Positions 1 to 9,859 of a stretch of DNA of 22,212 nt are shown here, piece after piece. Source of the DNA: a virus; the IMG/VR virus record IMGVR_UViG_3300013094_000305, positions 1 through 22,212 of that record. One strand, given 5' to 3'. The notes beneath the pieces were generated by a model that was not told where the DNA came from, ran no database searches, and saw nothing but the letters and a program-made list of their open reading frames with translations. A program made the position numbers and the translations under genes. Within the stretch, counting starts at the first letter, position 1. Each line of letters starts with the position of its first letter.

Positions 1-93
1 CAATTTGCAAAAATGGGTGAGGTAATTGATAATGTTGATGATTTAGAAATTATTGAAACAGAAGATAGAGGAACAATTGATTATGAAGATTAA
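1..93 (+). CDS. 3' end of an unknown protein with an acidic C-terminus (partial)
   Basis: An open frame enters from the left edge and ends at TAA 91-93, leaving the last 30 residues. They are rich in Asp and Glu (for example DNVDDLEIIETED) and end in DYED. Its 3' end overlaps the ATG of the exonuclease gene by 11 bases, the tight packing expected inside a phage replication operon. Acidic C-terminal tails occur in single-stranded DNA-binding proteins and other replication factors, but 30 residues cannot support a family assignment, so the function is left open. Confidence 0.6.
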   Translation, partial: QFAKMGEVIDNVDDLEIIETEDRGTIDYED

Positions 94-1108
94 GAAACCT
101 AAGGTTAACAGTTTGTTGATTGATGGTGAGAATTTGCTAAAGATTGGATTTCATGGCACCAAAAATACCCAAACAGAAAATGGTAGTGTTGGTGCCATTT
201 TTCATTTTATAAACACCATAAAAAGATTTTATTCCGAATATGGGATAACAAAGGTTGTGGTGTTTTGGGAAGGTGAAAACTCAAAAAAATATCGTCAAGG
301 ATATTATCCATATTACAAACAAAATCGAAACTCACAATATACTGAAGAACAAATTTATGATCTTGGTAGACAACGTATTCGAATTAAACAATACCTTGAG
401 GAGTTATATATTCGCCAAGTTGAAGTTGCTGAATGTGAAGCTGATGACGGTATTGCTTATTACTGTAAAAATTCACCAAACGAAATCAAATTAATATTGA
501 GTTCGGATAAAGATTTATTACAATTAATATCTGAAGATGTTAAAATATATCTTTTGAATAAAAAGGTTGTGATAACAGATAAAAATTTTCATACTTATTT
601 TGATTATCATCAAGGTAATGTTGGATTAATAAAAATGATTGCTGGTGATAGCAGTGATAATATTTCTGGTTTACAAAACATTGGTGAAGAAAAAACGTTG
701 AAATTATTTCCAGAATTGAGAAAAGAAAAAAAAGATTCTGATTGGATAATTGAACGTACAAATGAATTGTTAAGTGAAAAACCTGACAATAATATGTTGA
801 AAACAATTGTTGAAGGTAAAACAAAATGGGGTACATATGGTAACGATTACTTTGCTGTAATGAACAAGATTATTAATCTTGAATCGCCGAATGTAACTGA
901 AGAGTTAATGGAAACAATAAGTGTTATGGTTAATGAGCCAATGGATCCAGAAGGTAGAGGTGGGATTAATTCAGTAATGAAAATGATAAAAGAAGATGGA
1001 ATTATAAATTATATTCCAAGTTATGACGATGAATATTTTGTTTTTTGGAGTACGTTCATAACTATAATCAAAAAAGAACAAAATTATTTTAAAACTAAAA
1101 AAATCTAA
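83..1108 (+). CDS. rnh: 5'-3' exonuclease / flap endonuclease of the T4 RNase H type
   Basis: A PIN/FEN-fold nuclease, expected to remove RNA primers and 5' flaps during lagging-strand synthesis. Numbered from ATG 83 (341 residues), metal-binding acidic residues lie in LLIDGEN (Asp14), ECEADD (Glu119, Asp121, Asp122), SSDKDLL (Asp142, Asp144) and GDSSDNI (Asp189, Asp192). The last leads into a helix-3-turn-helix, SGLQNIGEEK (about 195-204). T4 RNase H is about 305 residues, so the length fits. The start ATG 83 is preferred over the in-frame TTG at 53 because it gives the usual short N-terminus before the first Asp motif. The final 23 codons (1037-1105) are duplicated, with different synonymous codons, after the downstream homing endonuclease gene. 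They are probably a replacement tail brought in with that gene. The family is clear. The symbol follows T4 usage. Confidence 0.88.
   Translation: MKIKKPKVNSLLIDGENLLKIGFHGTKNTQTENGSVGAIFHFINTIKRFYSEYGITKVVVFWEGENSKKYRQGYYPYYKQNRNSQYTEEQIYDLGRQRIRIKQYLEELYIRQVEVAECEADDGIAYYCKNSPNEIKLILSSDKDLLQLISEDVKIYLLNKKVVITDKNFHTYFDYHQGNVGLIKMIAGDSSDNISGLQNIGEEKTLKLFPELRKEKKDSDWIIERTNELLSEKPDNNMLKTIVEGKTKWGTYGNDYFAVMNKIINLESPNVTEELMETISVMVNEPMDPEGRGGINSVMKMIKEDGIINYIPSYDDEYFVFWSTFITIIKKEQNYFKTKKI
1035..1108 (+). repeat. Tail copy A: in-use, recoded 3' end of the exonuclease gene
   Basis: Positions 1037-1108 encode the last 23 residues and stop of the exonuclease (FVFWSTFITI through FKTKKI). They align without gaps to 1862-1933. 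By hand count, 59 of 72 bases match, and all 13 differences are synonymous across 11 codons, including serine AGT here against TCA there. Both copies start inside an identical 14-base block, ATTTTGTTTTTTGG (1035-1048 and 1860-1873). Because its upstream join is seamless, copy A is the end now used by the gene. Confidence 0.9.
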
Positions 1109-1131
1109 CTTTTAATCTTTTACTGGTCATC

Positions 1132-1159
1132 TTATATTTATAATAAATTATAAATATGA
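1132..1159 (+). promoter_or_regulatory. A/T hairpin covering the GIY-YIG start codon
   Basis: The arms 1132-1142 and 1149-1159 can pair over 11 positions (one T-G wobble) around the 6-base loop ATAAAT. The downstream arm contains the whole ATG at 1156-1158. The stem is essentially all A/T, so it would be weak, and A/T-rich DNA forms such stems easily by chance. Folding of read-through RNA could lower translation, a control known for phage T4 homing endonucleases. The role here is inference. Confidence 0.35.
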
Positions 1160-1860
1160 AACAAAAAATATATCTTTATATTAAAACAAGTCCAAAAGGT
1201 TTAAAATATTTGGGAAAAACCATAAAAGACCCCTTCAAATATATAGGTAGTGGTTTAGTTTGGCTAAATCATATAAAAAAACACAAAATAAAAACAAAAG
1301 ATATTATAACTGAAATTTTATTTGTGGGTTATAATAATGATGAGATAAAAGAGAAAGGTACTTATTACAGTCAATTATATAATATTGTTGAATCAGAAGA
1401 GTGGGCAAACCTAAAAATTGAAAATGGTGATGGTGGTTGGAGTGGATGGCATAATGAAGATACAAAAAAAAAGATGTCTGAGGCAAGAAAAGGTAAGATT
1501 GTTTCTGACGATATTAAAAAAAGAATGTCTGATGGTCAGTTAGGTAAAAAACACTCTGAAGATACGAAAAAAAAGATGTCTGAATCTAAAAAAAAGATGT
1601 CGGATGAAACTAAAGAAAAAATTAGATTTTCCGCTTTGAACAGAAGTGAAGAATATAAAAAAAAGATGTCAGATATTAAAAAAGGTACTATCATAACTGA
1701 AGATGTTAAATTAAAAATTTCTCAAAGTAATATTGGAAAAAAAAGGAGTGAAGGTACTAAAAGAAAAATGTCTGAATCTAAAAAAAATATGTCTGAAGAG
1801 ACTAAGAAAAAAATGTCTTTGAAAGCTAAAGAAAGATGGGCAAAAAATAAAAACAAATAA
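1156..1860 (+). CDS. GIY-YIG homing endonuclease with a NUMOD3 repeat tail
   Basis: A free-standing homing endonuclease of 234 residues. The N-terminal nuclease domain (about 5-95) shows a variant GIY-YIG signature, YLYIKTSPKGLKYLGKT at 6-22, then KYIGSG at 28-33, a likely catalytic Glu near 66 in EIKEKGTYYS, and the NLKIENGDGGWSGW end typical of phage members. The usual arginine after the second motif is not obvious here. From residue 99 to 228 the protein is a run of about eight NUMOD3-like repeats (core SEDTKKKMSE), a DNA-binding module of homing endonucleases. It lies 47 bases after the exonuclease stop and ends directly at a displaced copy of the exonuclease tail. Its likely target is an exonuclease gene without the insert. 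The frame looks intact. Confidence 0.85.
   Translation: MKQKIYLYIKTSPKGLKYLGKTIKDPFKYIGSGLVWLNHIKKHKIKTKDIITEILFVGYNNDEIKEKGTYYSQLYNIVESEEWANLKIENGDGGWSGWHNEDTKKKMSEARKGKIVSDDIKKRMSDGQLGKKHSEDTKKKMSESKKKMSDETKEKIRFSALNRSEEYKKKMSDIKKGTIITEDVKLKISQSNIGKKRSEGTKRKMSESKKNMSEETKKKMSLKAKERWAKNKNK
1450..1839 (+). repeat. Array of about eight NUMOD3-like codon repeats
   Basis: In-frame repeats of about 14-19 codons inside the GIY-YIG gene. Units begin near residues 99, 115, 133, 148, 162, 178, 197 and 211, each built on S/T-E/D-x-x-K-x-K-M-S. Some units are nearly identical in DNA, such as GAAGATAC[AG]AAAAAAAAG at 1456 and 1558, so the array has probably expanded by duplication. Confidence 0.75.
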
Positions 1861-1861
1861 T

Positions 1862-1933
1862 TTTGTTTTTTGGTCAACTTTTATTACTATTATAAAGAAG
1901 GAACAAAATTACTTCAAAACTAAAAAAATATAA
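1862..1933 (+). pseudogene. Tail copy B: displaced original 3' end of the exonuclease gene
   Basis: The 23 codons plus TAA encode exactly the peptide that now ends the exonuclease, but start one base after the endonuclease stop codon and belong to no gene. The stop at 1931-1933 lies 4 bases before ATG 1938, the spacing expected of an undisturbed operon, so this is most likely the ancestral end. Lack of any amino-acid change suggests it was displaced recently or came from a lineage under the same selection. Confidence 0.85.
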
Positions 1934-1937
1934 GATT

Positions 1938-2384
1938 ATGGAAGAAAGAAAAGAGCGTAATTTTGAGTTTACGTTGAAACTCAACGAACAGATTGTTGTT
2001 CAAAGATTGTTTAATGTTTTCGGTTTTAATAATAAAGCTGTGAACAGTTTAGATTTTAAATATGTTATTGACGATAACATAAGACTAATTCAGGAATCCC
2101 TTAAAAATAAGACTCTTGATTTTATGAATGAAAACAGAAACAATTACACTAACAACCCATCATTTGAACAAAATGAACATAGTGATATGTTTGTTTTTAC
2201 AATAAAAATGAATGGTAAAGAAATTGCTCACCGTGAATTTGATGCACGAATATATCCAGCTACTGTAAGATATAGTGTAGACATCAGAGAGCATATCTAT
2301 AAAATAATCACAAGTGTACAACGAGTGTTATGTTCTAAAACAGAAAATCTTGAATTGAATTATTTAGAATATAAACTTGGTTAA
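1938..2384 (+). CDS. Unknown 148-residue protein with two similar halves, in the replication operon
   Basis: I do not recognise this protein. It has two halves that resemble each other. Residues 9-56 begin FEFTLKLN, have R-x-F 14 residues after the first Phe and end in a helix-like segment. Residues 85-131 begin FVFTIKMN with R-x-F at the same distance and end similarly. A hydrophilic Asn/Glu-rich linker (about 60-84) separates them. No catalytic motif, signal peptide or membrane segment is visible. It starts 4 bases after displaced exonuclease tail copy B and ends 3 bases before the helicase start, so it was probably translated with both. A replication accessory or small dimer-like binding protein is possible but unproven. 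Confidence 0.8.
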   Translation: MEERKERNFEFTLKLNEQIVVQRLFNVFGFNNKAVNSLDFKYVIDDNIRLIQESLKNKTLDFMNENRNNYTNNPSFEQNEHSDMFVFTIKMNGKEIAHREFDARIYPATVRYSVDIREHIYKIITSVQRVLCSKTENLELNYLEYKLG

Positions 2385-3857: not shown

Positions 3858-6800
3858 ATGGATATATCACAAAAAATTTTAAGCGACATTACGGTATACA
3901 TGAAGTATGCCAAGTACTTACCAGAGAAAGAAAGAAGAGAAAGCTGGGAAGATTTAGTAACAAGAAACATGGAAATGCATATTAAGAAATTTCCTATGTT
4001 AAGAGATGAAATTATAGAAAAATACAAATTTGTATATGACAAAAAAGTATTACCTTCTATGAGATCACTTCAATTTGGCGGTAAACCAATTGAAATTTCA
4101 CCAAACAGAATATACAACTGTTTTGGTAGGGAAACTGAATTTATTACATCGGAGGGAACAAAATCATTTAAGGATTTTGAACATGGAGATATTATAACTG
4201 TTTTAACACATACTGGTAGTTGGAAATCAGCCGTTGTTAAAAATTATGGTAAACAGTTTCTATCAACAGCCACCTTTAGTAGGGGTAAAAGTAAAAAAAC
4301 CATCAGAGTTACCAAAAACCATAGATGGATTTTATTTGATGGTTCTGAAACAACCGAACTTGAATTGAATAAACCACTCTTTCCAACACAAAAAAATGAA
4401 AATTTTGACTATAATGATGCAACACCTATGGAAAGATTATATTGGTGTTATGGTTATGTATTTGGCGATGGTACACTTCTTAAAAAGAATGGTGAAGCTA
4501 AATATTCTATGGTTAGATTGTGTGGAGATGAAGCAACTAAATATCTTTACAGATTCAAAGAAATGGGGTTTGAAACATCTACCTCTAATAGTTTGGATGG
4601 GGATATTATGGTTTATACTGGTAAATATTTAAAAACAACACCAGATATAAATATAGATGGTTTAAATATGATAAAAGCCTTTATGGATGGCTATTTATCC
4701 GCTGACGGTGCTAAAAACCCAGATTGGTATGAAAATAATACATTATCTAAATATAAATCTATACAATCTTCACAGGAAGATCATATAGATTTTCTTAAAA
4801 AATATTTGGAGGTTTGTGGTTATTATATTACAAATATTTCTGATTTAACAGGTGAAATAACAAATTTTGGTGAACGACCATTAACTAAAGATTTTTCAAT
4901 AACAAATCACATTGGTAGTAGACCAAACACATCTTGGTCTATGACTGAAGTTAATGATTCATTTGTATCAGAAGATGTGTGGTGTCTTGAAGTTGAGGAT
5001 GATAAAAGTTTTGTTTTATCTGGTGGTATTGTGACTGGTAACTGTTGTTATTTACCAATAGACTACATTGATTGCTTTAGTGAAGTAATGTTTTTATTGC
5101 TTGGTGGTACTGGTGTTGGTTACTCAGTACAAAGACATCACGTAGAAAAATTACCAGAAATAAGAAAACCAAACCCAACAAGAAACAGAAGATTTTTGAT
5201 ATCTGATTCAATTGAAGGATGGGCTGACGCTATCAAAACCTTGTTAAAATCATATACAGGTGATATTTCTTCAACACCAGTATTCGATTTTTCAGATATT
5301 AGACCAAAAGGTGCAAGATTGATTACATCTGGTGGTAAAGCTCCAGGGCCTCAACCACTTAAAGATTGTATTCATAATATTAAAAAAATATTAGATACTA
5401 TAGAAGATGGTGAAAAATTAACGCCAATTCAAGTTCATGATATTGTATGTTATATTGCAGATGCAGTACTTGCAGGAGGTATCCGTAGAGCGGCACTAAT
5501 TTGTTTATTCTCCGCTGACGATGATGAAATGATTTCTTGTAAATCTGGTGCATGGTGGGAAAATAACCCTCAAAGAGGTAGAGCGAATAATTCTGCCGTG
5601 TTACTAAGACATAAAATAACTAAAGAATTCTTTGATGATCTTTGGTTGAGAATCAAGTTGTCTGGTTCTGGAGAACCTGGTATTTATTTCACAAATGATA
5701 AGGATTGGGGTACCAACCCATCGTTAAGGGCAGGTACAAAAGTGTTAACAACAGAAGGGATTTTTCCTATTGAGGAGTTGCAAGATAAAAGTTTTAAAGT
5801 TAAAAATTTAAATGGTGAAATATCTGATGCAAAATGTTGGTTATCTGGTAAAAATCAGCAACTTGTTAAGTTAACACTTGAAGATGGTACCGAATATTTT
5901 GCAACTAAGGAACATGAATGGCCCGTTTGGGATGGTGAAAAGTATGTTAAAGTTAAAACACCAGATTTAACAAACGGTGATAAATTACCAATAATTAGAG
6001 AGAATAAACTTTTTGATGGTAATTTAGGTGGGTATGATGATGGTTTCTTATGTGGTTGGATTATTGGTGATGGTTGGGTTTCAAATAGAAAAGAACATTC
6101 AGAATATGGTATGATAGTATCCGACACTGATGATGAATCTAATATATCCGATAAATTATTAAATACATTAAAAACAAATGTTATAACATTTAATGGTAAT
6201 TTTAATCGTAGATTCAAAAAGGAACACCAAAATATTGAGGAGGAGATGCAAATAGTTCTTGTTGATACACACACAAAAGAGATATCTATAAATAATAAAG
6301 AGGTTGATTTATATATTAAAAAGTTTGGTAATGTGGATAAAAACTATGGTTTACCTAAGTCGGTTTGGGTTGATGGTTCAGAAAATTTTAGAAAGGGCTT
6401 AGTTGATGCATTATTCAGTTCAGATGGAAATGTAAGTAAAACACAAAAAAGAATAACATTTACATCTTCACATAAACAATTAGTGGATGATTTATCTGAA
6501 TTATTAGGTTTCTACGGTATAAAATCTAAAATAAAAACATCTAAATCTAAATTAGATGGTTATGATAGTGAATTTACAAGATATGATTTAAGAATATGTG
6601 AAACAAGTTCAATAAAACACTTTATTTCCTTGTTTAAATTAACAAATAAATATAAACAAGATATTTTAGATTCTTATAAATTTAGATATAATATTCATGA
6701 TGATAAACAAATAAAGGTTGAATCCGTTGAATTAACAAATATATATGAGGATGTTTGGGATATTTCTGTATTTGATTCAACACATTGTTTTCAAATTTCT

Positions 6801-7499
6801 AAATTAATTACAGGTAACTGTTGCGAAATTGCACTAAGACCATATCAATTCTGTAATCTATGTGAGGTAAATGTTTCAAATATTGAATCTCAGGAAGACT
6901 ACAACGAAAGAGTTAAAGCTGCCGCATTTATAGGTACATTACAGGCTGGTTATACAGACTTCCATTATCTTCGTGAGATTTGGAAAAGAACTACTGAAAA
7001 AGAGGCTCTAATTGGTGTAGGAATGACAGGTATCGGTTCTGGTATTGTATTAAACTACGATATTAAGGGAGCAGCTAAACTTGTAAAAGAAGAAAATGCT
7101 CGTGTTGCGGCAATTATAGGTATAAATGCTGCCGCAAGAACAACAACAGTTAAACCATCAGGTTGCCAAATACCATCTACTGAAATTAGAACAAATAGGG
7201 GTACGTTATCACTTGATGATATATTCAAATTAAATGGTGTTGACTTGGGTACTAAACTAAATGAATATCGTGAATGGTACGATGTTACAGAAGATATTAA
7301 AGTTTATAATTACCTAAATGAAGAAAAAACTATAACTAAGTTGTTTGTAAATGGTTATGAGGAAACAATAGAATTTGTTATGGAAGATGGTACTGTTATT
7401 GAATGTACACCAAACCATAAATTTATGATGGTTGATGGTACATGGAAAGAGGCTAAGGAAATCACAGAAAATGATGACTTTTTAATAAAAATTTTCTAA
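3858..7499 (+). CDS. nrdJ: Class II (B12-dependent) ribonucleotide reductase, N-terminal part, with two full inteins and a split-intein N-half
   Basis: The gene encodes 1213 residues. The exteins are residues 1-87, 396-621 and 988-1102. They match monomeric adenosylcobalamin-dependent reductases: SDITVYMKYAKYL and LPSMRSLQFGGKP at the N-terminus, LLLGGTGVGYSVQ, NPC plus CEIALRPYQFCNL at the radical site, and TTTVKPSG at the end. The Cys coded at 6819 fits the thiyl cysteine (Cys408 in the Lactobacillus leichmannii enzyme), and the Cys at 6852, 11 residues later, fits Cys419. The Cys at 5043 fits Cys119. The chain stops inside intein 3, so active enzyme needs two cis-splicing events and one trans-splicing event with the product of 8561-9238. 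No small radical subunit is visible, as expected for class II. Product: dNTPs for phage replication. Confidence 0.9.
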   Translation: MDISQKILSDITVYMKYAKYLPEKERRESWEDLVTRNMEMHIKKFPMLRDEIIEKYKFVYDKKVLPSMRSLQFGGKPIEISPNRIYNCFGRETEFITSEGTKSFKDFEHGDIITVLTHTGSWKSAVVKNYGKQFLSTATFSRGKSKKTIRVTKNHRWILFDGSETTELELNKPLFPTQKNENFDYNDATPMERLYWCYGYVFGDGTLLKKNGEAKYSMVRLCGDEATKYLYRFKEMGFETSTSNSLDGDIMVYTGKYLKTTPDINIDGLNMIKAFMDGYLSADGAKNPDWYENNTLSKYKSIQSSQEDHIDFLKKYLEVCGYYITNISDLTGEITNFGERPLTKDFSITNHIGSRPNTSWSMTEVNDSFVSEDVWCLEVEDDKSFVLSGGIVTGNCCYLPIDYIDCFSEVMFLLLGGTGVGYSVQRHHVEKLPEIRKPNPTRNRRFLISDSIEGWADAIKTLLKSYTGDISSTPVFDFSDIRPKGARLITSGGKAPGPQPLKDCIHNIKKILDTIEDGEKLTPIQVHDIVCYIADAVLAGGIRRAALICLFSADDDEMISCKSGAWWENNPQRGRANNSAVLLRHKITKEFFDDLWLRIKLSGSGEPGIYFTNDKDWGTNPSLRAGTKVLTTEGIFPIEELQDKSFKVKNLNGEISDAKCWLSGKNQQLVKLTLEDGTEYFATKEHEWPVWDGEKYVKVKTPDLTNGDKLPIIRENKLFDGNLGGYDDGFLCGWIIGDGWVSNRKEHSEYGMIVSDTDDESNISDKLLNTLKTNVITFNGNFNRRFKKEHQNIEEEMQIVLVDTHTKEISINNKEVDLYIKKFGNVDKNYGLPKSVWVDGSENFRKGLVDALFSSDGNVSKTQKRITFTSSHKQLVDDLSELLGFYGIKSKIKTSKSKLDGYDSEFTRYDLRICETSSIKHFISLFKLTNKYKQDILDSYKFRYNIHDDKQIKVESVELTNIYEDVWDISVFDSTHCFQISKLITGNCCEIALRPYQFCNLCEVNVSNIESQEDYNERVKAAAFIGTLQAGYTDFHYLREIWKRTTEKEALIGVGMTGIGSGIVLNYDIKGAAKLVKEENARVAAIIGINAAARTTTVKPSGCQIPSTEIRTNRGTLSLDDIFKLNGVDLGTKLNEYREWYDVTEDIKVYNYLNEEKTITKLFVNGYEETIEFVMEDGTVIECTPNHKFMMVDGTWKEAKEITENDDFLIKIF
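4119..5042 (+). mobile_element. Intein 1 in NrdJ (308 residues, LAGLIDADG type)
   Basis: Begins at Cys88 after RIYN and ends ...IVTGN before Cys (coded at 5043). Block A starts CFGRETEFITSEG. Block B has TKNH (TxxH) in VTKNHRW. The endonuclease dodecapeptides are LYWCYGYVFGDG and IKAFMDGYLSADG. Block F is EDVWCLEVEDDKSFVLSG, and the end is Gly-Asn with Cys at +1. The usual penultimate His is Gly, as in some active inteins. The joined extein reads RIYN-CCYLPID, putting the insertion at the conserved redox cysteine. Confidence 0.9.
5721..6818 (+). mobile_element. Intein 2 in NrdJ (366 residues, LAGLIDADG type, Ser1)
   Basis: Begins with Ser622 (SLRAGTKVLTTEG, a good block A with Ser for Cys) and ends SKLITGN before Cys coded at 6819. 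Block B has TKEH in ATKEHEW. LAGLIDADG motifs are FLCGWIIGDG and GLVDALFSSDG. Block F is EDVWDISVFDSTHCF. Removal joins DWGTNP to CCEIALRP, the class II radical-site sequence. The +1 splicing nucleophile is thus the same cysteine that the mature enzyme uses as its thiyl radical. Confidence 0.9.
7164..7496 (+). mobile_element. Intein 3, N-half of a split intein (111 residues)
   Basis: Starts with Cys1103 right after VKPSG. Block A is CQIPSTEIRTNRG, and block B is IECTPNHKFMMVDG with TPNH. The frame stops (TAA 7497-7499) where continuous inteins would enter the endonuclease domain, the normal break point of natural split inteins. Its partner is the 34-residue C-half at 8561-8662. Trans-splicing would create KPSG-TSSLVLG, the conserved class II site. 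Confidence 0.88.
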
Positions 7500-7508
7500 A
7501 TTCAGTTC

Positions 7509-7564
7509 GTTTCACTGTTGTTAGACTATTTATATAAAATGAATAGTTATGGCATCAGTGAAAC
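7509..7564 (+). promoter_or_regulatory. Long hairpin over the start codon of the Vsr-like endonuclease gene
   Basis: The pairing is GTTTCACTG (7509-7517) with CAGTGAAAC (7556-7564), then TGTTA (7519-7523) with TGGCA (7550-7554), then ACTATT (7525-7530) with AATAGT (7542-7547). About 20-21 pairs form with one T/T mismatch and a small bulge. The start ATG 7549-7551 lies in the downstream arm. The loop, TATATAAAAT (7531-7540), resembles a promoter -10 or T4 late promoter. Read-through RNA from nrdJ would hide the start codon, while RNA begun in the loop would not. The pairing is seen directly. The control is inferred from T4 homing endonuclease genes. Confidence 0.65.
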
Positions 7565-8574
7565 AATCTTGGATTAAAAAGTATGGTGAATTTGAGGGTT
7601 TAAGGCTCTGGGAAGAACGTAAAAAATTATCAGCTATTACAGAAGATAATTTAATTAAAAAATATGGTTTAGAAGAGGGTTCTTTGAGATGGTTAAGTTA
7701 CAAAAATAAACTAAAAATTCGTGGTACTAAGAAATGGTACGTTGATAAATTTGGTGATAAAGATGGTACAAGCAAATGGTTAGAAAAAAACTCTAAATTA
7801 TCTGTTAGTGAAGATACGTTAAAAAATAATGGGTTCTCTAATGAAGAAATAGATATTATTAGAACTAAACATCAAGTAAAATCCATTAGGTCGATTGATA
7901 ATTTTGCTAAAGAGTGTGGTAACTACGATAAGGGTGTTGAGAAGTATAATATTTATCGTGAAAAAAATAGATTAACATCTTCCTGGGGATTAAATTATTG
8001 GATTGAGAAGTGTAAAGGTAATATCGAAGAAGCAAAACATAAATTAACCGAACACCAAAGTAGAAATATTGAATGGTGGAAAGCTAAATATGGTGAAGTT
8101 GATGGTGTAATTAAATATAATGATTGGGTTATACAAACAACTAAAGCCATAATGTGTGGTGATAATGTTTCTAAAGGACAAATATTATTGGAAAATGATA
8201 TAAGACAATTCTACAAAGGGACTATTTTAGGTTATCAAGAGAAGTACGGTATAATATTAACCAACTCAGAAAAGAAAAATTATAAAATTAAAAATAGTAT
8301 ATTATATCCAGATATAATATTGCCAGACATAAAAGTAATTATCAATTATCACGGTGATTTTTGGCATGGTTCGGAAAATATCTTTAATAACGAAAACCTA
8401 ATAATACCAAGAGTTAATAAAACAGTAAAAGAAGTGAGATTAATTGATAATGAGAAAGACAACCTATATATCAATCGTGGTTATGCGGTTATCACTGTAT
8501 GGGAGAATGATTATCAAAAAAACAAAGAAAATATAATAATTGAATTAAAAAATAAAATATATGAAAATAATTAA
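7549..8574 (+). CDS. Vsr-like homing endonuclease within the fractured nrdJ gene
   Basis: A 341-residue free-standing endonuclease between the two nrdJ pieces, 49 bases after the first stop and overlapping the start of the second by 14 bases. The C-terminal domain resembles the very-short-patch repair nuclease and the related homing endonucleases of fractured genes: YPDIILPDIKVIINYHGDFWHG (with Asp, His and Trp-His positions like Vsr), then DNLYINRGYAVITVWENDY. The N-terminal two thirds hold about six degenerate 24-residue units of the form W-x-x-K-Y-G-x-x-E/D-G-x-x-x-W (near 6, 34, 61, 119, 149 and 174), probably for DNA recognition. Expected target: an uninterrupted nrdJ at the KPSG-T site. 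An extensive hairpin covers the start codon. Confidence 0.85.
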   Translation: MASVKQSWIKKYGEFEGLRLWEERKKLSAITEDNLIKKYGLEEGSLRWLSYKNKLKIRGTKKWYVDKFGDKDGTSKWLEKNSKLSVSEDTLKNNGFSNEEIDIIRTKHQVKSIRSIDNFAKECGNYDKGVEKYNIYREKNRLTSSWGLNYWIEKCKGNIEEAKHKLTEHQSRNIEWWKAKYGEVDGVIKYNDWVIQTTKAIMCGDNVSKGQILLENDIRQFYKGTILGYQEKYGIILTNSEKKNYKIKNSILYPDIILPDIKVIINYHGDFWHGSENIFNNENLIIPRVNKTVKEVRLIDNEKDNLYINRGYAVITVWENDYQKNKENIIIELKNKIYENN

Positions 8575-8662
8575 AAAGGAAATTAAGAAAAACTTTACGG
8601 TGGATATTGAAGTTGAGGATACACCAAACTATCAATTAAAGAACGGTATTGTATCGCATAAT
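8561..8662 (+). mobile_element. Intein 3, C-half of a split intein (34 residues)
   Basis: Starts MKIIKKEIKKNF, strongly basic, against the acidic end of the N-half (EITENDDF), a charge match known from natural split inteins. Block F is TVDIEVEDTPNYQLKNG, followed by IVSHN with the standard penultimate His and terminal Asn. The +1 residue is Thr, coded at 8663-8665. Confidence 0.88.
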
Positions 8663-9238
8663 ACAAGTTCATTAGTTCTTGGTACATCTTCAGGTATTCA
8701 CGCATGGCACAATGATTATTACATCCGTAGAATCCGTGTTGGTAAAAATGAGTCAATATATAATTATTTATATATGTATCATCCAGAACTTATTGAAGAT
8801 GAATATTTTAGACCACACGATACGGCTGTTATCAGTGTTCCTCAAAGAGCACCAGAAAACTCAATTTATAGAACTGAATCAGCTATAAATTTGTTGGAAA
8901 GAGTTAAAAAAATTAGCAAAGAATGGATTAAACCTGGCCATAGAAAGGGTGAAAACACACATAACGTATCAGCTACTATTGCAATCAAGGAAGATGAATG
9001 GGATACAGTAGGTACATGGATGTGGGATAATAAAGAATTCTATAATGGATTATCTGTATTACCTTATGATGGTGGAAGTTATATCCAAGCCCCCTTTACT
9101 GACATCACTAAAGAAGAATACGATGAAATGATAAATCATTTAACAGCTATCGATTTAACAAAAATAATCGAACATGAAGACAATACTGACCAAAAAGGCG
9201 AGGTTGCATGTGGTGCAAATGGGTGCGAAGTAAGATAA
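8561..9238 (+). CDS. nrdJ: Split-intein C-half fused to the C-terminal part of class II ribonucleotide reductase
   Basis: The first 34 residues are the intein C-half, and residues 35-225 (191) are the reductase C-extein, starting TSSLVLGTSSGIHAWHN, a conserved class II segment. The chain ends CGANGCEVR. The Cys-x4-Cys pair (codons at 9209 and 9224) matches the C-terminal redox shuttle Cys731/Cys736 of the L. leichmannii enzyme. After all splicing the full reductase would be about 619 residues, shorter than the 739 of that enzyme. The ATG at 8561 lies inside the last codons of the endonuclease gene (14-base overlap), so translation may be coupled. Confidence 0.9.
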   Translation: MKIIKKEIKKNFTVDIEVEDTPNYQLKNGIVSHNTSSLVLGTSSGIHAWHNDYYIRRIRVGKNESIYNYLYMYHPELIEDEYFRPHDTAVISVPQRAPENSIYRTESAINLLERVKKISKEWIKPGHRKGENTHNVSATIAIKEDEWDTVGTWMWDNKEFYNGLSVLPYDGGSYIQAPFTDITKEEYDEMINHLTAIDLTKIIEHEDNTDQKGEVACGANGCEVR

Positions 9239-9301: not shown

Positions 9302-9859
9302 ATGGGACGTAAAAATACATCTAAATATTCAAATAAATTTACTATTGGTCAAAAATATGGCGAATATTCTATTATTGATGAAAAAATTATAATTGAAAAA
9401 GAAGCTAAAGTAACATGTAAATGCTCTTGTGGTGAAATAAAAAAAGTATCGTGTTAATATTTAATCAAAGGTACATCAACAAAATGTTTAAATTGTGGTA
9501 ACTCATTAAAAAAAGAAAATAACCCATCATGGAAAGGGTTTAATAATATACCTGGTAAAGTTTTTAGTAAAATAAAAAGAGATGCTAAACTTAGAAATAT
9601 AGAATTTAAACTAACAATATCTTATCTAAACGATTTGTTTATAAAACAGAATAAATTATGCTCTTTAAGTGGTTTGTTGTTAGAAAGTACATATAATAAT
9701 ATGACAATGTCTTTAGACAGAATTGATAATAATAAAGGTTATATTGAAGAAAATGTACAATGGGTACATAAAGATATTAATATGATGAAACGGATTTATT
9801 CACAAGATTATTTTATATACATGTGTAAATTGGTTGCTGAATGTAATTCAGAAATATAA
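9302..9859 (+). pseudogene. HNH homing endonuclease broken by one in-frame TAA
   Basis: Reading from ATG 9302, one frame runs 186 codons with a single internal TAA at 9455-9457 (codon 52). Before it lies CKCSCGEIKKVSC, and after it YLIKGTSTKCLNCG, together a typical zinc-binding N-terminal region. Further on, LCSLSGLLLE, SLDRIDNNKGYIEENVQWVH and KDINMMK form the HNH nuclease core of phage homing endonucleases. The downstream part is otherwise undamaged, so inactivation looks recent (for example TAT to TAA) or is a sequencing error. Re-initiation at the TTG of 9635 would give only 74 residues, without the zinc region. It sits between nrdJ and the baseplate operon. Confidence 0.82.

Follow-up and report, generated by a model that had tools for sequence, protein, structure and literature searches.

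The window examined here is the virus record IMGVR_UViG_3300013094_000305 over its whole length of 22,212 bases. In this stretch, a homing endonuclease gene (HEG) lies between two copies of the end of a 5'-3' exonuclease gene. The arrangement is most probably the work of a mobile HEG cassette that inserted within the gene end and restored the gene with a foreign, differently spelled end, while the native end was left orphaned beyond the HEG. As far as the compared sequences indicate, such a cassette would replace the 3' or the 5' end of its target gene. An earlier reading of this DNA from its letters alone, referred to below as the sequence-only reading, had proposed that the element inserts in a gene and supplies a working tail. 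This proposal holds, and the same pattern recurs at other genes and at 5' ends.

The duplicated exonuclease tail

The body of the exonuclease gene extends over 83..1036 up to the duplicated tail, and was assigned by matches to Pfam 5_3_exonuc_N (E 4.2e-28) and PHROG 107 exonuclease. The final 23 codons and the stop codon are present twice, at 1037..1108 (copy A) and 1862..1933 (copy B), flanking the HEG. Copy A is in frame with the exonuclease and is the tail in use, while copy B follows the HEG. Both copies translate to FVFWSTFITIIKKEQNYFKTKKI and a stop. The peptides are identical, and the DNA differs at 13 of 72 bases, in 11 codons; all of these differences are synonymous, including serine AGT versus TCA. 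A recount of the duplication gave the same figures as the sequence-only reading. The only open reading frame (ORF) between the two copies is that of the HEG (1156-1860, 234 amino acids). Four bases separate copy B from the next gene, a 148-residue gene at 1938..2384 that lies directly after the exonuclease in phages without the element. All of these features are located on the plus strand, as are those named next. Copy A carries the site codons TTC ATA ACT ATA ATC at 1055-1069, and copy B carries the canonical site TTTATTACTATTATA, known from relatives, at 1880-1894. The 14-base stretch ATTTTGTTTTTTGG at 1860..1873, which is common to the start of copy A, marks the junction between the element and the native tail.

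Chance similarity of the tails was ruled out, as they match at 59 of 72 bases and no other ungapped alignment of the tail to either strand of the window exceeds 39 of 72. The same arrangement was found in the contigs L001, L002, L003 and L005 (HEG 100%) and in L006 (HEG 89%, broken), and it is therefore not an assembly artefact of a single record. In the structural model of the exonuclease (mean predicted local distance difference test, pLDDT, 88.6), the tail forms most of the C-terminal helix 314-339, with pLDDT values of 88 for the penultimate and 83 for the final block of ten residues. Loss of the tail would therefore probably damage the exonuclease.

The nuclease

The ORF at 1156..1860 contains NUMOD3 repeats (Pfam E 4.8e-12) and matches the homing endonucleases of PHROG 314 (E 1.3e-16), a family also matched by 26 of the 34 members of the HEG family alignment. 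An AlphaFold2 (AF2) model of residues 1-115 aligns with the catalytic domain of I-TevI (Z 9.4, 85 residues, 2.4 Å) and, with a lower score, with the GIY-YIG domain of UvrC (Z 4.7). The I-TevI alignment came from a second structural alignment, since Foldseek alone returned nothing significant for the model. The Pfam GIY-YIG profile gave no match in the HEG, and a sequence search of the PDB with a three-row HEG alignment returned lectins and flavohemoproteins, with no nuclease among them. On the evidence of the model, the predicted GIY-YIG fold is well supported, in keeping with the GIY-YIG endonuclease that the sequence-only reading had placed between the tails. In bacterial genomes, the HEG family was found at two loci of metagenome-assembled genomes, without duplicated flanks.

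The HEG is preceded by a putative late-type promoter motif, TATTTATAATAAA, at 1135..1147 (plus strand). The underlying motif TATTTATAnTAAA has 18 copies in the 356 kb analysed from two related phages, versus 0-3 in six shuffles. By eye, its copies mostly stand right before an ATG, and one copy precedes the HEG. In the two related phage records (L126-L144), many start codons are shortly preceded by this motif.

Empty, occupied and scarred exonuclease alleles

Relatives of the exonuclease were collected by scans of IMG/VR, from which the best matches were listed (e.g., the best 80 of 547 in one scan). At least 69 distinct exonuclease sequences have the 148-residue gene in view. In 59 of the 69, the gap between the two genes is -23 to 19 bases and therefore leaves room for one tail only. 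These are the uninterrupted genes, followed directly by the 148-residue gene, that the sequence-only reading had suggested looking for. The remaining 10 have gaps of 33 to 829 bases and comprise the window clade, L006, L008, L033/L047, L011, L019/L022/L023 and L083. Presence of the HEG is thus sporadic at one site. In a tree built from the gene body, with the tail excluded, six changes are required to explain the long-gap state, and well-supported branches force at least four of them.

The long-gap alleles differ in what is left of the HEG. It is intact in the window clade. In L006 it is broken by a changed start codon and a disrupted frame, and both tails are kept. L008 retains a HEG remnant between two tails, with 78% identity over 23 residues matching residues 210-232. 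Copy A is still in use in L006 and L008 after this decay. In the gaps of L033 and L011, a fading tail can be recognised over most of its length, with scores of 100 and 80, respectively; 101 control intergenic stretches scored at most 45. The remnants in the gaps of L019/L022 (p 0.07/0.02) and L083 (p 0.05) do not reach the scores of the best control stretches and were not counted as proven scars, and a motif scan of the L083 gap did not exceed the null. In L023 (3026-3066), the exonuclease frame continues through the gap region, and the protein has gained a new C-terminus.

The native copy and the imported copy

The empty allele L007 and the occupied allele L008 form a close pair, in which the origin of each tail can be followed. 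Six differences between the two fall in L008 2300-3949 and 21 in 3950-4259; the 170 bases that start with copy B and extend into the next gene contain another 7. Judged from this distribution of differences, a recombination tract has been shown to surround the element, and it resembles what homing with co-conversion would leave. Copy A of L008 differs from the tail of L007 in 13 of 18 codons, and the gene body in 23 of 322 (p 1.4e-10), while copy B matches the L007 tail at 69 of 71 aligned bases. Given the codon excess in one copy and the match of the other, copy B of L008 is the native tail by sequence comparison, and copy A was imported with the element. L033 shows the same excess: relative to the empty sister L034, 13 of 19 codons are changed in its tail A and 72 of 331 in the body (p 3.5e-5), with p 0.0011 against L042 and p 0.0054 against L024. 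The L008 region gave no match in a DNA-level search of the phage collection.

In the window itself, copy B would be native on the evidence of its site codons and its spacing to the next gene. The sequence-only reading had likewise taken copy B as ancestral and copy A as having arrived with the endonuclease, a view that the L007/L008 pair and the neck gene described below support. The tract of the element in L003 and L006 holds 5 substitutions in about 1040 bases, versus 0-13 per 150 bases elsewhere, a low divergence that is suggestive only.

Probable end replacement in other phage genes

Other loci of the HEG family were examined by a flank test, in which one HEG flank was compared with the other in every frame and in either sense. 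The first scan contributed 74 of 80 loci, as L002 and L145-L149 (the elements of the window and of L006) were left out. Addition of L003, L066 and L078 raised this number to 77, five loci were lost because contig ends lay too near the HEG, and a second scan added 79. The resulting 151 usable loci represent 92 distinct HEG N-termini, 83 of which have at least 300 bases on both sides. A flank self-match score above 60 was obtained for 7 of the 92. A null of 250 mismatched flank pairs gave one match of 361, taken to be a pair of homologous genes, and otherwise at most 59. One of the seven, L173 (score 263), reflects an internal glycosyltransferase repeat and was dropped.

Six cases are left. Besides the window clade, these are two thyX loci (L233 and L224) with a duplicated 3' end and an antisense HEG, a phosphoesterase gene (L285) with a duplicated 3' end, an ATP-dependent DNA ligase gene (L292) with an orphaned 5' end, and a gp4-like head-closure gene (L281), also with an orphaned 5' end. 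Together with a neck gene of a cultured phage, they supply the neighbours with duplicated ends for which the sequence-only reading had proposed a search around the GIY-YIG protein. In the thyX, ligase, gp4-like and phosphoesterase cases, the presumed native end is assigned from anatomy. Across the seven cases, the neck gene included, the HEG is antisense to the target gene in five. Sixteen thyX loci bear a HEG (L224-L238, L246), and in 13 of them the 3' end of the HEG overlaps the matched thyX end. No second thyX tail was found among 80 thyX relatives (the best 80 of 599), one of which has a linked HEG of the thyX subfamily. The rescued DNA ligase gene of L292 (reverse complement, 4419-5267) also appears to hold an intein, with a weak Hint match below the cut-off.

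The seventh case was found outside the flank test, in Vibrio phage VB_VaC_SRILMA (PP083314.1), and concerns the 5' end of a neck gene. The first 40 codons of this neck (head-tail adaptor) gene are fused in frame to a HEG of the window's family. Next comes a neck gene of full length, which has another 5' end and overlaps the end of the HEG. The fusion of HEG and orphan lies at about the codon where the rescued neck gene becomes native. Four empty relatives, pv27, phiTY18, Va1 and phiKT1024, were compared with each part. Of 120 bases in the orphan 5' end, 109-112 are matched in these relatives, compared with only 82-85 of 121 in the rescue end. Over the other part of the rescued neck gene, 573-586 of 609 bases agree, and over the 60 bases upstream of the orphan, 57 or more of 61. 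As the empty relatives match the orphan and not the rescue end, the orphan is native and the rescue end is foreign. By these alignments, the element evidently broke into the native neck gene at about codon 40. The native 5' end has become the start of the HEG, and the gene was restored with a foreign 5' end. Of all the cases, the neck gene demonstrates the cassette logic most cleanly, and it mirrors the window case. The availability of a cultured phage with the element and of cultured empty relatives makes the system directly testable. A second HEG of the same family lies in SRILMA between the gene for the single-stranded DNA-binding protein and an exonuclease gene (L429, SRILMA 153257-158613), and no duplicated gene ends were found at it.

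Proposed course of events

In the proposed mechanism, the nuclease would cut the conserved tail of an empty exonuclease gene. The break would then be repaired off a donor phage, for which the gene body would serve at one flank and the native tail with the next gene at the other. The product would be the order observed here: exonuclease body, copy A, HEG, copy B. Copy A keeps the exonuclease protein whole. Its DNA difference from copy B should avoid re-cutting, and should also avoid shortcut use in repair as well as loss of the element through recombination between the tails. When the HEG decays, copy A would stay in use, as is seen in L006 and L008, and copy B would eventually fade, as is likely for L033 and L011. 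Long-term outcomes are visible in these alleles, namely nuclease decay, a retained recoded end, and repeated invasion of one site. The same course would account for hybrid genes and for fragments of gene ends that appear in phage annotation, e.g., a pair of neighbouring "head-tail adaptor" genes in one Vibrio phage.

A broader proposal is that phages harbour a general class of home-and-rescue drives, in which one GIY-YIG family attacks conserved gene ends, carries cut-proof recoded 3' or 5' ends, and, once the nuclease has been lost, leaves the recoded end behind as a heritable scar that confers immunity. This generalisation is offered tentatively and falls a little short of an even balance. 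If it is true, past drives have left their record in the ends of genes for replication and for the head.

Several observations weigh against the cassette explanation. Duplicated gene ends are lacking at 85 of the 91 HEG loci that remain without L173, and end replacement is therefore only occasional. Just 2 of the 16 HEG-bearing thyX loci (L233 and L224) have an orphan thyX tail, and a search for an empty thyX allele flanked by the same genes found none. Nor did a close empty allele turn up for the lineage of the window itself, the nearest being L007 and L009 at 74% amino acid identity. L007 and L008 also differ strongly around L008 700-1200, far from the element; recombination tracts are therefore not unique to it. 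No excess divergence of the tail over the body was seen in L019, L011 and L083 (p 0.81, 0.81 and 0.15, in comparisons with more distant relatives). Among the cases compared codon by codon, purely synonymous recoding occurs only in the window clade. The SRILMA rescue end differs from pv27 by 14 nonsynonymous and 11 synonymous codon changes in 40, with 1 nonsynonymous and 29 synonymous changes in the other 203 codons of the neck gene. Finally, L033 and L011 hold both tails without any HEG. The sequence-only reading had named relatives of this type as evidence that would speak against it, and they do exist. They are read here as likely scars after loss of the HEG, in which copy B is fading, because L008 still holds a HEG remnant between its tails.

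Recoding of the tail

In empty lineages, the F-I-T-I-I stretch of the tail is encoded almost without exception as TTT ATT ACT ATT ATA. The FITIIK window has a synonymous identity of 0.967 among 14 empty lineages, the highest of 337 windows of the exonuclease gene, for which the mean is 0.57 (standard deviation 0.11). Among 37 distinct exonucleases with the F-I-T-I-I motif, all 10 long-gap sequences have synonymous changes at the site, compared with 2 of the 27 short-gap sequences (Fisher 1.9e-7, a value that ignores relatedness).

These data also bear on the explanation that comes closest to the favoured one, in which the two tails divide the labour. The tail DNA of empty phages would carry a signal for the next genes as well, perhaps a promoter (TTG...TACTATTATA). 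Copy B would keep this signal beside the downstream gene, and copy A would keep the protein and be free at synonymous sites. The exceptional synonymous conservation of the FITIIK window in empty lineages points in this direction, as do the site codons that remain synonymously unchanged in 25 of the 27 short-gap exonucleases. Moreover, by eye, the fading copy B retains its core, with 15 of 15 bases in L033 and 14 of 15 in L011. Sites of the form TTG-N18-21-TACTATT were seen 11 times, versus 0-7 times in six shuffles. Two of these sites are exonuclease tails, and a few of the remaining ones immediately precede an ATG. Against this explanation, the enrichment is weak. A further difficulty is that copy A in L008 and L033 is far more diverged from close empty relatives than the gene body is; it was therefore imported already different and did not drift in place. 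The neck-gene and thyX cases do not need such a signal. Overall, this explanation is a reasonable possibility that leans somewhat towards doubtful. It is compatible with the cassette explanation, as it replaces only the immunity step and makes selection for nuclease immunity unneeded. Recoding may thus reflect immunity to the element's own nuclease, release from the signal, or both; the sequence cannot separate the two.

Other explanations of the arrangement

Alternatively, the tail may have been duplicated first, by recombination, and the HEG may have entered the duplicated spacer later. The two tails without a HEG in L033 and L011 are what this order of events would produce. It is nevertheless improbable, as L008 keeps a HEG remnant and L006 a broken HEG between the tails. 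Furthermore, double tails of thyX are seen only with a HEG (two loci; none in the best 80 of 599 relatives), and in SRILMA the in-frame fusion of HEG and orphan coincides approximately with the codon where the rescue gene turns native.

An ordinary intergenic HEG, with copy A as the old tail and copy B as a chance remnant of repair, would agree with the observation that most HEG relatives adjoin genes without any duplication. However, it is copy B and not copy A that matches the empty alleles in site codons and spacing, and the orphan ends in L008 and in the SRILMA neck gene likewise match empty alleles, which makes this explanation quite unlikely. Phages of this type commonly harbour HEGs within introns and inteins, and the window has inteins in its ribonucleotide reductase, but an intron or intein with copy B as the real last exon is very improbable here, since no group I or II intron match (E up to 1) was obtained at 900-2050, no intein domain was found in the exonuclease or the HEG ORF, and copy A already closes the reading frame with a stop. 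The sequence-only reading had likewise set the element apart from introns and inteins.

Further features of the window

The window starts with the end of a RecA-like gene, followed by the exonuclease gene, the HEG and the 148-residue gene. The RecA-like label was given by eye, from the ORF preceding the exonuclease in L006. The remainder contains a DnaB-like helicase gene, an intein-bearing ribonucleotide reductase gene and baseplate genes. In the related locus L054 (3364-4424, also L055-L057), a DnaB-like helicase is interrupted by about 1 kb at residue 208, perhaps an intein or intron. The ribonucleotide reductase gene of the window (3858-9238) has several intein segments. Its last intein looks split, and a free-standing endonuclease ORF (7549-8574, weak Vsr match, PHROG 22677) lies between the halves, which presumably resembles the arrangement called a "fractured gene". 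After the reductase, two short ORFs at 9302-9859 read by eye like a broken HNH-type endonuclease; they gave no Pfam match above the cut-off.

Comparison with known systems

Split-intein fractured genes with Vsr-like endonucleases, one of which may lie at 7549-8574, presumably share with the element a HEG inside a gene whose product is restored. In fractured-gene systems, the product is restored by protein splicing and not by a replacement gene end. The HEGs of T4-like phages, with the free-standing Seg family and I-TevI, are similar to the HEG described here in their catalytic fold (Z 9.4 to I-TevI) and NUMOD3 repeats. The recombination tract around the element is also like the co-conversion described for T4 (PMC2988022). 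In contrast to the element, no carried replacement gene end is mentioned for T4-like HEGs in the accessible part of that source, where the string "duplicat" is absent (PMC2988022).

The closest natural counterpart is found in fungal mitochondria, where endonuclease ORFs carry a foreign C-terminus and the native one is left downstream (PMC3630166). The examples given there are atp6 of Allomyces macrogynus, atp6, atp9, cox2 and nad3 of Glomus, atp9 of Rhizopus and cox2 of Mortierella (PMC3630166). The sequence-only reading had known of no described family of this type; for the 3' form, this part of the reading has to be corrected (PMC3630166). One end of Glomus atp6 shows 100% amino acid but not DNA identity with a relative, with synonymous changes only (PMC3630166), as do the two tails of the window. 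The phage element also has the other characters of this fungal mORF type, i.e., an inserted end in phase, a nuclease ORF and a displaced second end. Moreover, the displaced end matches empty relatives and the inserted end does not (L008/L007, with SRILMA as the 5' mirror). It differs in residing in phage genomes, in the use of one GIY-YIG family at several different genes and at both 3' and 5' ends, in the decayed scars across a phage group, and in the HEG being antisense to the target in 5 of 7 cases. The window is a phage contig by its baseplate and replication genes (Pfam, PHROG). The element thus works like the fungal type but is not filed as a member of it, as it is not mitochondrial.

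Searches of the open-licence literature of PubMed Central found neither a phage HEG reported to carry a replacement gene end nor a 5' form of such an element, and neither appears in the accessible parts of PMC10448857 and PMC2988022. The kind of element therefore appears to be new for phages and for 5' ends, while its 3' form is already known from mitochondria.

The engineered home-and-rescue drive HomeR in Drosophila PolG2 is likewise inserted within an essential gene, whose 3' end it supplies in re-coded form (PMC7968924). HomeR differs in being engineered and Cas9-based, with re-coding by design. The purpose of its re-coding is to resist cutting. If the mechanism proposed above is correct, the phage element would be a natural counterpart of engineered home-and-rescue gene drives. 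It would also provide another route, besides introns and inteins, for a selfish nuclease to reside inside a used phage gene, namely by bringing a spare end.

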